The notes under the pieces are model-generated. The model saw only the letters and a list, made by a program, of their open reading frames with translations, was not told the DNA's origin and did no database searches. From Caldimicrobium sp. (GTDB lineage: Bacteria; Desulfobacterota; Thermodesulfobacteria; Thermodesulfobacteriales; Thermodesulfobacteriaceae): a stretch of 37,702 bases of DNA. Both the position numbers and the translations under genes were made by a program. The stretch lies in NCBI GenBank assembly GCA_025060015.1, contig JANXDB010000042.1:1-37702 (forward strand), given 5' to 3'. This document shows positions 1,340 through 9,333 of this stretch, one piece after another; the first letter of the stretch is position 1, and every line of letters begins with the position of its first letter.

Positions 1340-2107
1340 ATGGAACATAGGGATAAACTTGAAACTCTGAAGAAAAGGCTTTCAAGGTTTGAAGGAAAAG
1401 CTCAGGGGCACCGAAAAAGAGTAAAAGAGAGATTTTGGACAGACGGCCCAGAGAGCTTTTCTGATGAAGATCTCCTAGAACTACTGCTTTTCTTCGGGAT
1501 TCCTCGCAGAGACACCAGGGTCCTGGCAAGGGAGCTTCTAAAGCGCTATCAAGGAAGATTAGATCAAGTCTTAGACGCAGATATAAAGAAACTAAATGAG
1601 ATTCCAGGGTTGGGTTCAAAAGCTATCCTTCCCCTGAAAGTGGTGCATGAAGTAGCAAGGCGATATTTAAAGAGTAAGAGTCTTCATACAAACTACCTCA
1701 AATCTCCTCAGGATGTCTATCAGTATTTGATCTATGAGCTCAAAGGTGAAAAGAGAGAGGTCTTCATGGTGATATACCTTGCTGGTGATCACAGAGTGCT
1801 TGCCTTGGAAAGGCTATTTGAAGGAACTATCAACGAAAGCGCAGTCTACCCAAGGGAGGTCTTCGGTAAGGCTTACTCCTATGGCGCCAGCCATCTGGTT
1901 CTTGCTCATAATCACCCATCTGGAAAACTCAAGCCCTCTAAAGAGGATCTCAAAATCACCCGCACACTAGCCTTTACTGGATTCTTGTTGAATCTCAGAG
2001 TTATTGATCACCTTATTGTTGGGGCAGAGGGATATTACAGTTTCGCCGAAGACGGAATTATGGAGGAGATCGAAAGGGAGTGGAAAGACTTATGGAAATC
2101 AAGATAG
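1340..2107 (+). CDS. radC: RadC family protein (JAMM/MPN domain)
   Basis: RadC proteins have an N-terminal helix-hairpin-helix-like region and a C-terminal JAB1/MPN metalloprotease-fold domain. Their biochemical role is unsettled; the old DNA-repair assignment in E. coli was withdrawn. Here the HhH segment lies around residues 84-95 (IPGLGSKA) and the JAMM zinc motif is complete: E140, then H190-x-H192-P-S194-G and D203. At 255 aa it is slightly longer than usual (about 225) because of a basic N-terminal extension. The ATG directly follows the lptC stop codon without a clear ribosome binding site, suggesting coupled translation. Its 3' end overlaps ispH by 16 bases. Function within this LPS/isoprenoid operon is not apparent. 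Confidence 0.92.
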   Translation: MEHRDKLETLKKRLSRFEGKAQGHRKRVKERFWTDGPESFSDEDLLELLLFFGIPRRDTRVLARELLKRYQGRLDQVLDADIKKLNEIPGLGSKAILPLKVVHEVARRYLKSKSLHTNYLKSPQDVYQYLIYELKGEKREVFMVIYLAGDHRVLALERLFEGTINESAVYPREVFGKAYSYGASHLVLAHNHPSGKLKPSKEDLKITRTLAFTGFLLNLRVIDHLIVGAEGYYSFAEDGIMEEIEREWKDLWKSR

Positions 2108-3738
2108 CCAAAAAAGCAGGCTTTTGCATGGGAGTAAGAAGGGCTGTCAATCTGGTTCTCAAGGCTTTGAATGAAGATAAGACTCCCCTCTACACCTATG
2201 GACCATTGATTCACAACCCACAAACCCTTGAGCTTCTAAACTCCCTTGGAGTTAAAATTCTAAAACATGTCAATGATGAGGTCCAAAAGGGAACCTGTGT
2301 CATTAGAGCACATGGGGTCCCTCCTAAGGAAATGGAAGCTTTAGAAAAAAAGCACACCGTCATTGATGGAACCTGTCCAAGAGTCCAAAAGGTTCAGGCT
2401 TTGGCAAAAAGGGCAAAAGAACAGAGTAAAAAGGTGATTATCATTGGAGACAGGGATCATGCTGAAGTAAAGGGGATTCTAGGTTACTGTAACGGACATG
2501 GTTTTGTAGTGAGTTCCTATGAGGATATAGAAAAACTCCCACCATTGGAAGATTATCTTATTCTCTCCCAGACAACCCAGGATGAGGAGGTCTTTGACCT
2601 TCTTGCCGAGGAGATTCTCTCTCGATACCCAGGAGGTGAGGTAGTCAATACCATCTGCAACGCAACGGAGGTCAGACAGAGCGAAGTAAGAAGGCTCTGT
2701 AAAGAGTGTCAAGCTATTGTAGTTATCGGTGGAAAATTCAGCGCCAACACGGTGCGGTTGGCACAAATAGCAAGGGATGAAGGAAAAGAGGCCTATCTGA
2801 TCGAGAGAACTGAGGAGTTACCTCTGGAGGTGTTGAAAAGGCACCAAAGGGTAGGAGTAACTGCAGGTGCTTCAACTCCAAACTGGCTTATAAATGAAGT
2901 TGTAGATAGGCTTAAAAGCTCAACAAGCAACTTCTATCGCGCCTTTAAGGCCTTTCATATCTTGGCCTTTCACGAAGCCCTTGGCATTCTTCTCCTCCTC
3001 ATGGCTCTATCTCTATGGATTCCCGATCTCCGCTTGAAAGCTGCACTTCCCCTCTTTGCCTTTGTCTTTTTCACTCAACTTTTTAGAAAAAACGCCATGC
3101 AATTTCTTCTCCGTGACACCTTTAAGACCTACTATCCTCTGAAGGAAAAAGCTATCTCTAAACACCGAGGTCTTGTGTTTGGCATCATTGCCATCTCATT
3201 CATCATCGCTCTTCTTTCAGGCTTTCTTTACAATCCATGGCTTGTCTTGGGGCTTCTTTTCATCATCTTCATTGACTGGCTCTTGTTTAAAAGTCCACTT
3301 GCTATCTTAGGTGATTTTCTCTTCTTTTCTGGTTTGCTCTTGCTTTTATATCCCCACTGGAATGAGACCCTTATTATGTTATCAGTCTCTGCTATGACAA
3401 GTTTACTCTGGTGTCACCTTTACAAGGAGCTCATATATCTTCAAAGCGATGGGTTCTTGCCAAAGAGTTTTCTCATCCTATCACTACCTCTTGGAGAAAA
3501 GAAATGGCAAAAGCTCCTCTTCTATGGACTGATTATCTTGGTTTTACCCTTTTTAATTCTCTCCTTTCGTGACCTGACCTATCTTTTCCTAATCCTTATG
3601 CTACCCCTTTATGGGATGTTACTCTATCTCTTGCGACAAAGGCCTCTTGGTCAGATCCTTTACTTAGAGAGCATGACCATCTTTCCTCATATCTGGTTCC
3701 TCCTGCTTAATTTAGGAATCTATCTCTACAGAGCATGA
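2092..3738 (+). CDS. ispH: HMBPP reductase IspH fused to a C-terminal polytopic, UbiA-like membrane domain
   Basis: Residues 1-276 are a complete IspH, the Fe-S enzyme that makes IPP and DMAPP from HMBPP at the end of the MEP pathway. The three cluster cysteines are C12, C95 and C189; H41, H74, H123 and E125 match the substrate-binding set. IspH normally ends there (about 280-320 aa). This protein continues to 548 aa with some eight hydrophobic segments from residue 287 on. That part resembles UbiA prenyltransferases in layout: a loop with RDTFKTYYP (342-350) where the first Asp-rich motif would be, and KELIYLQSDG (446-455) followed by LPLGEKK in the position of the second, but the aspartates are mostly lost. 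I chose ATG 2092 over GTG 2080 because it puts the first ligand at C12, as in E. coli, with AGGGAG upstream. It overlaps tadA by ATGA. Confidence 0.9.
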   Translation: MEIKIAKKAGFCMGVRRAVNLVLKALNEDKTPLYTYGPLIHNPQTLELLNSLGVKILKHVNDEVQKGTCVIRAHGVPPKEMEALEKKHTVIDGTCPRVQKVQALAKRAKEQSKKVIIIGDRDHAEVKGILGYCNGHGFVVSSYEDIEKLPPLEDYLILSQTTQDEEVFDLLAEEILSRYPGGEVVNTICNATEVRQSEVRRLCKECQAIVVIGGKFSANTVRLAQIARDEGKEAYLIERTEELPLEVLKRHQRVGVTAGASTPNWLINEVVDRLKSSTSNFYRAFKAFHILAFHEALGILLLLMALSLWIPDLRLKAALPLFAFVFFTQLFRKNAMQFLLRDTFKTYYPLKEKAISKHRGLVFGIIAISFIIALLSGFLYNPWLVLGLLFIIFIDWLLFKSPLAILGDFLFFSGLLLLLYPHWNETLIMLSVSAMTSLLWCHLYKELIYLQSDGFLPKSFLILSLPLGEKKWQKLLFYGLIILVLPFLILSFRDLTYLFLILMLPLYGMLLYLLRQRPLGQILYLESMTIFPHIWFLLLNLGIYLYRA

Positions 3739-4211
3739 ATTCCTTTTATTTTACCAAGGATGATTTTGAGTTTATGGCCAAGGCCCTGTATCAGGCTCAG
3801 CTTGCCTTTGAGGAAGATGAGGTTCCAGTGGGTGCGGTGTTGGTCTCTTCAGAAGGAGAGATTTTAGCTGAGACACGAAACCTAATCCTTAAGCTTTGCG
3901 ATCCAACTGCCCACGCGGAAATCTTGGCTATAAGAGAGGGCGCTAAAAAATGCGGTAATTACCGTCTAATAGGCTGTAAACTCTATGTTACTTTAGAGCC
4001 CTGTCCAATGTGCACCTATGCTACAGTTCTTGCTCGTTTAGATGAGATTGTATTTGCCACACCGGATCCTAAGACTGGAGCCTGTAAAAGTCTCTATCAG
4101 ATAGCCAGTGATCTAAGGCTTAATCACCAGATCAAAATCAGGTGGGGGCTTTACGAGGAGGAGGCGAGTTTACTTCTTAAAAAATTCTTTCAGGAACGGA
4201 GAAAATTCTAA
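3735..4211 (+). CDS. tadA: tRNA-specific adenosine deaminase TadA
   Basis: TadA converts A34 to inosine in the anticodon of tRNA-Arg(ACG). The protein is a single cytidine-deaminase-fold domain of 158 aa, the normal size. The zinc and catalytic residues are all present: H60-A-E62, and P89-C90-P-M-C93. The motif NYRLIGCKLYVTLEPCPMC is close to the family consensus. The start ATG overlaps the stop of the ispH gene as ATGA, so it is probably translated by coupling. At the 3' end it overlaps the convergent pyruvate kinase gene by 4 bases. A guanine deaminase or other deaminase is less likely given the tRNA-type motif context. Confidence 0.93.
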   Translation: MNSFYFTKDDFEFMAKALYQAQLAFEEDEVPVGAVLVSSEGEILAETRNLILKLCDPTAHAEILAIREGAKKCGNYRLIGCKLYVTLEPCPMCTYATVLARLDEIVFATPDPKTGACKSLYQIASDLRLNHQIKIRWGLYEEEASLLLKKFFQERRKF

Positions 4212-6263: not shown

Positions 6264-6791
6264 TCACCTAAACAAAATGTCCTGAAAAATCAGCTCAGCT
6301 ATATCCTTAGATAACCTTCTTAGCGCCTCTGTTTTTCCTGGCTCCAAGAGACCTGTGGTAACTTGGGAGACCCTATAGGTCTCAAAACGAGAAAGCTTTG
6401 GATTTTCGTGGACCTTCTGCTGAGTTTGCCTCTCAATCAGCTCAAATTTACCCTCAAATAGAAGCTTTCGCTCTCTTGTTTGAAGAAATACCTCATAGGA
6501 GATAGGCTCAATGTATATACGCAAGATCTCACCTTTCAAGATCAAATCTGCTTCTGCTTCACTGTACACCGGCATTAAAAATCTTCCCTGAGCAAACTTA
6601 TGCCTTAGATCATAGGCGATCATCTCACCTAATTCAGGCTCCTGAGTGTAATTTTTGAAAGGTGGTATAAAAACCCTTTGCCAGTGAGGTTTAAAGTATG
6701 TAGGCTTTTCCAGAAGGGAGTATCCACAGGAGAAGAGGAGGATACTAAGTAACAACGATGTTGATAAGCCTATCCTGGACAAAAACCACAT
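6264..6791 (-). CDS. lptE: LPS-assembly lipoprotein LptE
   Basis: LptE plugs the LptD barrel and helps insert LPS in the outer leaflet. From the ATG at 6791 the product is 175 aa: a hydrophobic signal segment, then a lipobox LLFSC with the lipidated Cys followed by GYSL, then a periplasmic domain beginning with the LptE-like segment [16 protein letters not shown]. The C-terminal part is rich in charged and polar residues and lacks membrane segments. The open frame extends to 6845, but that puts 18 hydrophilic residues before the signal peptide, so the internal ATG is preferred. The start lies 47 bases inside leuS, so the two are probably translated from one mRNA. Neighbouring lptC and lpx genes agree with the role. 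Confidence 0.82.
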
Positions 6792-9333
6792 TTTTGATAG
6801 TTTTATTATCAAGGTATTTTTGGATCTTGGGAAGGCCTGAGACAATCTCCCAGGCTTCCTCCTTACCTATGCCAGAGGGAACCTCCACTTGATCTCTCAC
6901 TTTACCATTTATCTGCACCACCAAATTTATTACTTCCTCCTTTGTTAGCTCCTCAATCCAATCCGGAAAGGACTCCTCTGCAACCAGTGTCTTTTTACCT
7001 ATCCTTTCCCAGAGTTCTTCGCAAATATGAGGACAAACCGGAGATAGACAGAGAATTAGCTTCTCAAAGACCTCCTTTAACAACCGGAGATTCTTCTCCT
7101 CCCCCAAGTCCATCTCCTTAAGAGAATCCTGTAAGTAGTTTAAAAATTCCATGATCCTTGCAATCCCAGTGTTAAAATGCATCCTCTCCTCAAAGTCCTG
7201 ATGCACTTTCTTAATCATCTGATGTAGTTTGCGACGAAGCTTCCTTGCGGAGTCGGAAAGTCCTGTTAGATCCTCTTCTCTGTATTCTAAATTTGCTAAA
7301 GTATCAGCATACTCCTCTACAAGGTTATAGACTCTTCTCAGAAATCTATGTGCTCCCTCTATGCCATGGTCACTCCATTCTAAATCCTTCTCAGGTGGTG
7401 CTGCAAAGGCTATGAAGAGCCTTACAGTATCTGCACCATATTTCTCTATCATCACATCAGGATCAACCACATTACACTTACTCTTAGACATTTTCTCTGG
7501 CTTACCGATCACTACCTTTTCACCGCAATTATCCCTTAGGCAGCTTCCATCGTCGGAGACCTCCTCTGGATAGATCCATCCATGCCTGGGACACCTGTAG
7601 GTCTCCTTTATGACCATTCCCTGGGTTAAAAGCCTCTTAAAGGGTTCATCTAAATCAAGATAACCAAGGTCGCGCAGTGCTTTGGTAAAAAAGCGAGCAT
7701 AGAGGAGATGTAAGATAGCATGCTCGATACCACCAATATACTGGTCTACAGGAAGCCAATAGGAAACATCTTCCTTATTGAGAGGCTCTGGCGAATGAGG
7801 ACAGGTGAACCTAGCAAAATACCAGGAAGACTCAACAAAGGTGTCAAAGGTATCGGTTTCTCTTCTGCCCCTTCCACCGCACTTTGGACAGGTGGTATCC
7901 ACAAATTCCCTCAACTCTGGAAGTGGACTTCTTCCCCGCGGGTCAATCTGGGCATCTAAAGGTAGTCTTACCGGAAGGTTTTCTAATTTCTCTGGAACCA
8001 CTCCACAGGTTTCACAATAGATCATGGGAATTGGACAGCCCCAGTAACGCTGTCTCGAAACTCCCCAGTCTCTCAGTCTGTAGGTAATTTTCTTTCTACC
8101 CAATCCTAAGGAAGAAAGCTTTTCCGTAACCCCTTTCTTTCCATCTTCGTTACTTAGGCCTGTGAATTCTCCGGAGTTTACCATCAAACCCGGACCTTCG
8201 TAGGCTGATTCCATTGTCTCTGGACTCAAAGGTTCCTCTTGAGGCTGAATAACTACCTTTATAGGAAGACCGTATTTTCTGGCAAATTCAAAGTCCCTCT
8301 GGTCATGGGCAGGCACACACATTATGGCACCGGTTCCGTATTCCATTAGCACAAAGTTTGCAGTGTAAAGAGGGATAGCCTCTTTGGTCAGGGGATGTAT
8401 AGCGTGAGTGTCTAAAAAAAATCCCTCTTTCTCCGCAAGCCCCTCTTCGATGTTTTTTCTCTCTCTACGAACCTTCTCTCTGAAATCGAGGAGTCTATTC
8501 TCAAAGCCCTTCTGATGGGCAATCTCCACGGCCAAGGGATGTTCCGGAGAAAGAGCGAGATAGGTTACTCCAAAGAGGGTATCAGGTCTTGTGGTAAACA
8601 CAGTAAGGGTTTTACCAAGGTCTGGTATGAAAAACTCTATTTCAGCTCCCTCACTTTTACCGATCCAATTTCTCTGCATGACAAGGACCTTCTCTGGCCA
8701 GAAACCAGCAAGTTTGTTTAAATCCTCGAGGAGTTCTTCTGCATATTGAGTTATCCGAAGAAACCATCCCTCCATCTCCTTGGTAGTAACCACTTCTCCG
8801 CAGCGCCAACATTTTCCCTCTTCCACCTGTTCATTTGCAAGAACTGTTTGACAGCTTTCACACCAATTCACCAGGGATTGCTTCTTATAGGCTAGACCCC
8901 TCTCATAGAGTTCTATGAAAAATCTCTGCTCAAACCTGTAATATTCGGGATCACAGGTGGCAAATTCTCTCTCCCAGTCATAACTAAAGCCAAGCTTTTT
9001 TAATTGAGCTTTCATGTGTTCAATGTTAGAGTGAGTCCATTTTGCTGGATGAACACCGTGTTTTAGAGCAGCATTCTCTGCAGGCAAACCAAAGGCATCC
9101 CAACCCATGGGATGAAGCACATTGTAGCCTTTCATTCTCTTAACCCTGGCAACGATATCCCCCAGGGTGTAGTTTCTCACGTGTCCCATATGAATTTTAC
9201 CTGAGGGGTAGGGAAACATCTCAAGCACATAATATTTGGGTTTCGTGGGATCAGTGGATACTTTGAAAACACCTCTCTTTTCCCAAATACTTTGCCACTT
9301 TCTTTCTATAGAAGAAGGCTCATAGGTCCTCAT
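6745..9333 (-). CDS. leuS: leucyl-tRNA synthetase
   Basis: This class Ia synthetase charges tRNA-Leu. The 862-residue protein is full length. It has the HIGH-type motif HMGH (48-51) within [11 protein letters not shown], zinc-finger-like Cys pairs near residue 160 (CESC, CWRCG), the CP1 editing domain with TTRPDTLFG, and KMSKS near residue 615 followed by CNVVDP. A tRNA-binding helical domain and the short C-terminal domain follow. The Cys-rich segments RCPRHGWI and CLRDNCGEK just before KMSKS are usual in bacterial LeuRS. The start ATG is preceded by a GAGAGACTTACT-type purine stretch. It sits 21 bases downstream of icd and overlaps lptE, in a run that begins with greA. Confidence 0.97.

Follow-up and report, generated by a model that had tools for sequence, protein, structure and literature searches.

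In the window, by which we mean the whole 37,702-nucleotide stretch of Caldimicrobium sp. DNA analysed here (assembly GCA_025060015.1, contig JANXDB010000042.1), we found a gene that encodes an intact IspH joined to a membrane domain that is almost certainly derived from UbiA prenyltransferases, in which every active-site motif residue compared except one has been replaced. The same replacements run through a clade of 19 sequences from three genera, here called A3 (seven from the window's genus, the window's own included, and twelve from two further genera). We consider it probable that a catalytically dead UbiA protein is kept in this clade as a membrane anchor or docking domain for the active IspH. 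The fusion as such has been known since 2015; what is new is the loss of the UbiA active site in A3. The literature searched contained no description of this loss for the Caldimicrobium-type clade, which is not proof of novelty.

An uninterrupted fusion gene conserved in the family

The fusion gene is a single open frame of 548 codons on the + strand (2092-3738), without interruption; a longer listed start is an in-frame GTG at 2080. The original prediction was of an unbroken run from IspH into a membrane part, and 270 further residues do follow in frame. The upstream gene (1340..2107, + strand), which we take to be RadC-type, shares 16 bases with the beginning of the fusion gene, whose stop codon in turn overlaps the ATG of the next gene downstream (3735..4211, + strand), presumably a TadA-type deaminase; both families were recognised without a search. 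Owing to the overlaps with both neighbours, we regard the fusion gene as part of a tightly packed operon. RadC and TadA flank it in nearly all loci across the order, and this shared gene order identifies the members of the order as true orthologues. At the checked loci elsewhere in the phylum, outside the order, this flanking was not found.

A side observation concerns the - strand of the window (6264-9333), where a leucyl-tRNA synthetase-like ORF (6745-9333) overlaps a small lipoprotein-like ORF (6264-6845) by about 100 bases. Because of this overlap, the listed TTG start of the smaller ORF probably lies too far upstream.

Among 30 genomes of the same family, 27 carry both parts in one frame; these are the window's own and 26 other full-length relatives, the best-named being the Caldimicrobium MAG L001. 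In two genomes the fusion is split, with contigs that end inside the gene, and one genome (70% complete) gave no match to the fusion. Thus every family genome with an assembled locus has the fusion, and none shows a stop or frameshift in it. A sequencing slip or contig artefact is ruled out by the 26 intact relatives and by splits that occur solely at contig ends; these are also the only cases within the family in which relatives carry the two parts separately, an outcome that would have undermined the fusion and that we had looked for.

Beyond the family, listed matches that span both parts occur in more than 100 of the 297 sampled genomes of the phylum, which extends the distribution of the known fusion. 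We also searched 18 phylum genomes with an unfused IspH for stand-alone copies of the fusion's UbiA subfamily; 15 had none, and the other three gave weak matches. These searches indicate that genomes with an unfused IspH mostly lack this subfamily, and no gene-context clue to the UbiA substrate emerged from the 18 genomes.

The IspH half is complete

IspH reduces HMBPP to IPP and DMAPP. The IspH domain of the window (residues 1-278; 2092..2925, + strand) matches TIGR00216 over residues 3-275 (E=8e-86; 287.7 bits against a curated cut-off of 187.85) and Pfam LYTB (E=4e-89), and its AF2 model matches the solved IspH structure 3dnf. Its three cluster cysteines, C12 (2125..2127), C95 (2374..2376) and C189 (2656..2658; all + strand), are evident in the translation and the alignment, so that the predicted complete IspH is confirmed. 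Together with nine other active-site positions (His, Glu, Thr, Ser and Asn) they are invariant in all 94 aligned fused proteins, 12 of 12 positions checked. A search of the window's genome returned a single IspH match, which is the fusion gene.

The membrane domain descends from UbiA

The C-terminal membrane domain (residues 279-548; 2926..3735, + strand) gave no match in Pfam, NCBIfam or PDB sequence searches, and the UbiA model (PF01040) matched none of the 19 A3 domains. Its ancestry becomes visible through relatives. The orthologues in three sister genera (A2, n=8) all match Pfam UbiA, the best at 5.5e-9 and above the curated cut-off, and so do all 18 relatives examined from elsewhere in the order and the phylum (best 4.2e-18); the sister sequence L024 and the phylum relative L078 are among those that pass the cut-off. 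Archaeal-type DGGGP synthases and chlorophyll synthase are the proteins that the domains of the order and phylum relatives resemble most. In profile comparisons, A3 matches A2 with 98.6-98.8% probability across 260 columns, and the remaining sequences of the order and phylum with 83-96%. Against the canonical UbiA proteins of the same genomes there was no profile match, and the link to UbiA therefore depends on the sister domains.

The predicted structure of the C-terminal part alone is compatible with this assignment. The AF2 model, built from two sequences (the window domain and one relative) and of low confidence (pLDDT 62), has nine helices and not the eight originally counted. The top three Foldseek matches of this model in the PDB are 7bpu (probability 1.00), 8djk (0.90) and 4tq3 (0.89), with weak E-values of 0.036 to 0.8. 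These are DGGGP synthase, UBIAD1 and AfUbiA, respectively. Together with chlorophyll synthase (9sau), the UbiA prenyltransferases 7bpu and 4tq3 are the closest kin, by sequence or by fold, of the domain or its intact relatives, and the modelled window domain may share their nine-helix fold and the positions of their motifs; the Mg and diphosphate ligands of these enzymes are lost in A3. Taken together, the chain of homologues, the conserved gene order, the tentative fold and the placement of the motifs bear out the reading of an IspH fused to a degenerate UbiA.

A membrane-domain tree with canonical UbiA as outgroup was discarded on account of long-branch joins, and the IspH tree was used. The tree program flagged a deviant amino-acid make-up of the membrane domain in L007, L009, L010, L012, L018, L019 and L021. 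The window's genome also encodes a separate canonical UbiA (TIGR01475, MqnP-like group), which could supply quinone prenylation.

Stepwise loss of the UbiA active site

Motif positions were compared in 93 fused proteins. Outside the order (n=58), the Asn of motif 1 is kept in 51 sequences and its first Asp in 45, and all 58 have K or R in loop 4-5; of the motif-2 residues, the first Asp is present in 44 sequences, the second in 57 and the Gly in 58. N, D, R/K and ExxxDxxxG are all retained in the remaining families of the order (F2). The sister genera display intermediate stages of motif loss: in A2 the motif-1 Asp has become Ala in 8 of 8 sequences, while N, R and DxxxDxxxG are kept.

In the window, the Asp positions of the motif 1 region (residues 333-351, KNAMQFLLRDTFKTYYPLK; 3088..3144, + strand), with LLRDTF at the motif, are replaced in the alignment. 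The loop 4-5 region (residues 402-405; 3295..3306, + strand), PGSK or PGNR in relatives, has lost its basic residue. In the motif 2 region (Y449-P457, YLQSDGFLP; 3436..3462, + strand) the window has YLQSD at the DXXXD repeat: the first Asp is changed to Tyr and the final Gly to Pro, and the second Asp, D453, is the sole residue left at a motif position. Across A3, the motif-1 Asp position (D+4) is mostly N, L, Q or T, in a register uncertain by about two residues, so that a nearby Asn could be the motif Asn; the basic residue of loop 4-5 is mostly Phe, and motif 2 has Tyr at the first Asp (D-8) and Pro at the Gly in 19 of 19 sequences. The set of Mg and diphosphate ligands (NxxxD, K/R of loop 4-5, DxxxD) is thus replaced throughout the clade save D453, which is retained in all 19 within an equally invariant loop. 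The original statement that the aspartates are largely gone holds for most of the motif Asp residues but not for this one.

Previous work on AfUbiA demonstrated that Ala at N68, D72, R22 or K146 abolishes GPP binding and that D198A and D202A weaken it 45-fold and 21-fold, respectively (PMC4106721). As these mutants show lost or weakened binding, it is very unlikely from the alignment that a Mg-prenyl-diphosphate would bind to the A3 domain in the manner usual for UbiA.

Deviant motifs were also observed elsewhere in the alignment. In L112, L115, L120, L121, L122 and L125 (families f52 and f8), Ala replaces the first Asp of motif 2 (ALEGD/AIEGD) and the motif-1 Asp is followed by a gap of one residue; given the decay in this lineage, partial decay of the UbiA site arose more than once. 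In several further lineages of the phylum, comprising L128, L129, L131, L133, L148 and L150 as well as L140, L146, L147, L152 and L153, the first motif-1 Asp gives way to Gly, Asn or Thr, with motif 2 mostly kept.

Fast evolution under continued constraint

Compared at similar IspH divergence, the membrane domains of A3, A2 and F2 evolve about 3-4 times as fast as IspH, whereas the median domain/IspH rate ratios in the rest of the phylum are 0.6-1.9. Because all three groups of the order show the elevated rate, constraint seems to have loosened already in their common ancestor, ahead of the full loss of the motifs. Pairwise dN/dS values (NG86) within A3 are mostly 0.15-0.25 at moderate divergence, an estimate limited by dS saturation. 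They point to persisting purifying selection on the membrane domain, although hydrophobicity alone can give a ratio below 1 and could partly explain them.

Two blocks stand out amid the drifting A3 domain. The motif-2 loop (YxExxYxQxDGFLPxxF) is near invariant, and so is RPLGQxxYLE, which contains the segment PLGQILYLE of the window (residues 518-526, ahead of the last helix; 3643..3669, + strand); this segment is largely kept across the order. Both blocks plausibly face the cytoplasm, and IspH, which would be located there, might contact them. The invariance of the DGF-P loop and of PLGQxxYLE suggests that the domain may have a role beyond passive anchoring.

Possible roles of the decayed domain

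It has been shown that IspH-UbiA hybrids with two DXXXD motifs (class PT_UbiA_5) occur in sulfate-reducing bacteria, and it was proposed by Rao et al. that IspH feeds the UbiA part locally; the hybrids failed to express in that 2015 study (PMC4746011). They resemble the protein of the window in domain order, with IspH preceding UbiA in a single chain, in phylum and in the presence of a separate canonical UbiA/MenA in the genome, and the test species Thermodesulfatator atlanticus belongs to the same order. In A3, unlike in these hybrids, both DXXXD repeats are broken and the domain lies below Pfam detection. The IspH-RPS1 hybrids of Firmicutes (NF000907) likewise join IspH to a large C-terminal partner, which is dispensable for catalysis in vitro (PMC4746011); there the partner consists of S1 repeats, in the window it is a membrane domain.

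In the explanation that we favour, the fusion protein is the cell's only IspH and would make IPP and DMAPP like any other IspH, while being attached to a membrane domain of UbiA fold that came down from the phylum's IspH-UbiA fusion. This domain would have lost its prenyltransferase activity in A3 and would keep IspH on the inner membrane face, close to where prenyl chains and quinones are made, with the conserved loops perhaps docking IspH. Quinone prenylation would be carried out by the separate MqnP-like UbiA (TIGR01475). Channelling or sensing of isoprenoids and anchoring at the membrane had all been suggested for the fusion; anchoring emerges as the likeliest, while channelling or sensing of a prenyl diphosphate is disfavoured in A3 because most of the binding residues are lost.

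An alternative that we consider unlikely is that the domain, as a pseudoenzyme, may still bind a prenyl lipid or quinone and feed back on IspH, by analogy with UBIAD1. In animals, UBIAD1 senses GGPP, and it binds and controls HMG-CoA reductase (PMC9314443, 8djk), so that there, too, a UbiA-fold protein is coupled to an upstream isoprenoid enzyme, and it is among the top fold matches of the window domain; the (near) invariance of D453-G454-F455 and PLGQxxYLE while the remainder drifts would also fit such a role. UBIAD1 and HMG-CoA reductase are separate proteins of another pathway, and wild-type UBIAD1 binds GGPP. Against the pseudoenzyme, the comparison with AfUbiA makes a diphosphate ligand unlikely for A3, in which the residues that bind it are mostly lost (PMC4106721). 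Somewhat less likely still is the more specific idea of a non-catalytic regulatory membrane subunit controlling the fused IspH in response to a lipid product of the isoprenoid pathway, which might be a quinone or an undecaprenyl lipid.

We regard it as improbable, slightly more so than such a subunit, that the domain still works as a prenyltransferase, or as a related transferase, by means of a rearranged metal site and is fed locally by IspH. The relatives in the phylum mostly keep NxxxD, the basic loop residue and DxxxDxxxG, and in the window D453 persists, as do some charged residues close to motif 1; yet the key positions save D453 are replaced throughout A3, in three genera, and the domain evolves at an accelerated rate. 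A shade less probable again is neutral decay, in which the domain would persist solely because IspH lies upstream. The stepwise motif loss from F2 through A2 to A3 and the faster change are what such decay would leave behind, but dN/dS values well below 1, the invariant blocks and the open frame in all assembled family genomes speak against it. Replacement of the UbiA domain by an unrelated membrane family, for which one might cite that the window domain has no family match and that no profile match links it to the canonical UbiA proteins encoded in these genomes, can be practically dismissed, given a full-length profile match to the sister domains, the same gene order, a motif-2 region that aligns residue by residue and UbiA fold matches.

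If UbiA catalysis were the sole reason for the fusion, the fusion would be expected to vanish once catalysis is lost. It outlives the loss of the UbiA active site in every assembled member of A3, and we therefore favour membrane placement of IspH as its lasting benefit. The decayed variant separates two ideas that are entangled in the published fusion and makes its purpose more testable. The graded relatives, with intact, half-decayed and decayed sites, form a natural set of constructs for probing the role of the domain and, coming from thermophiles, may behave better than the hybrids of 2015. Should the regulatory reading be true, the protein would be the bacterial equivalent, in a single chain, of the pair UBIAD1 and HMG-CoA reductase.
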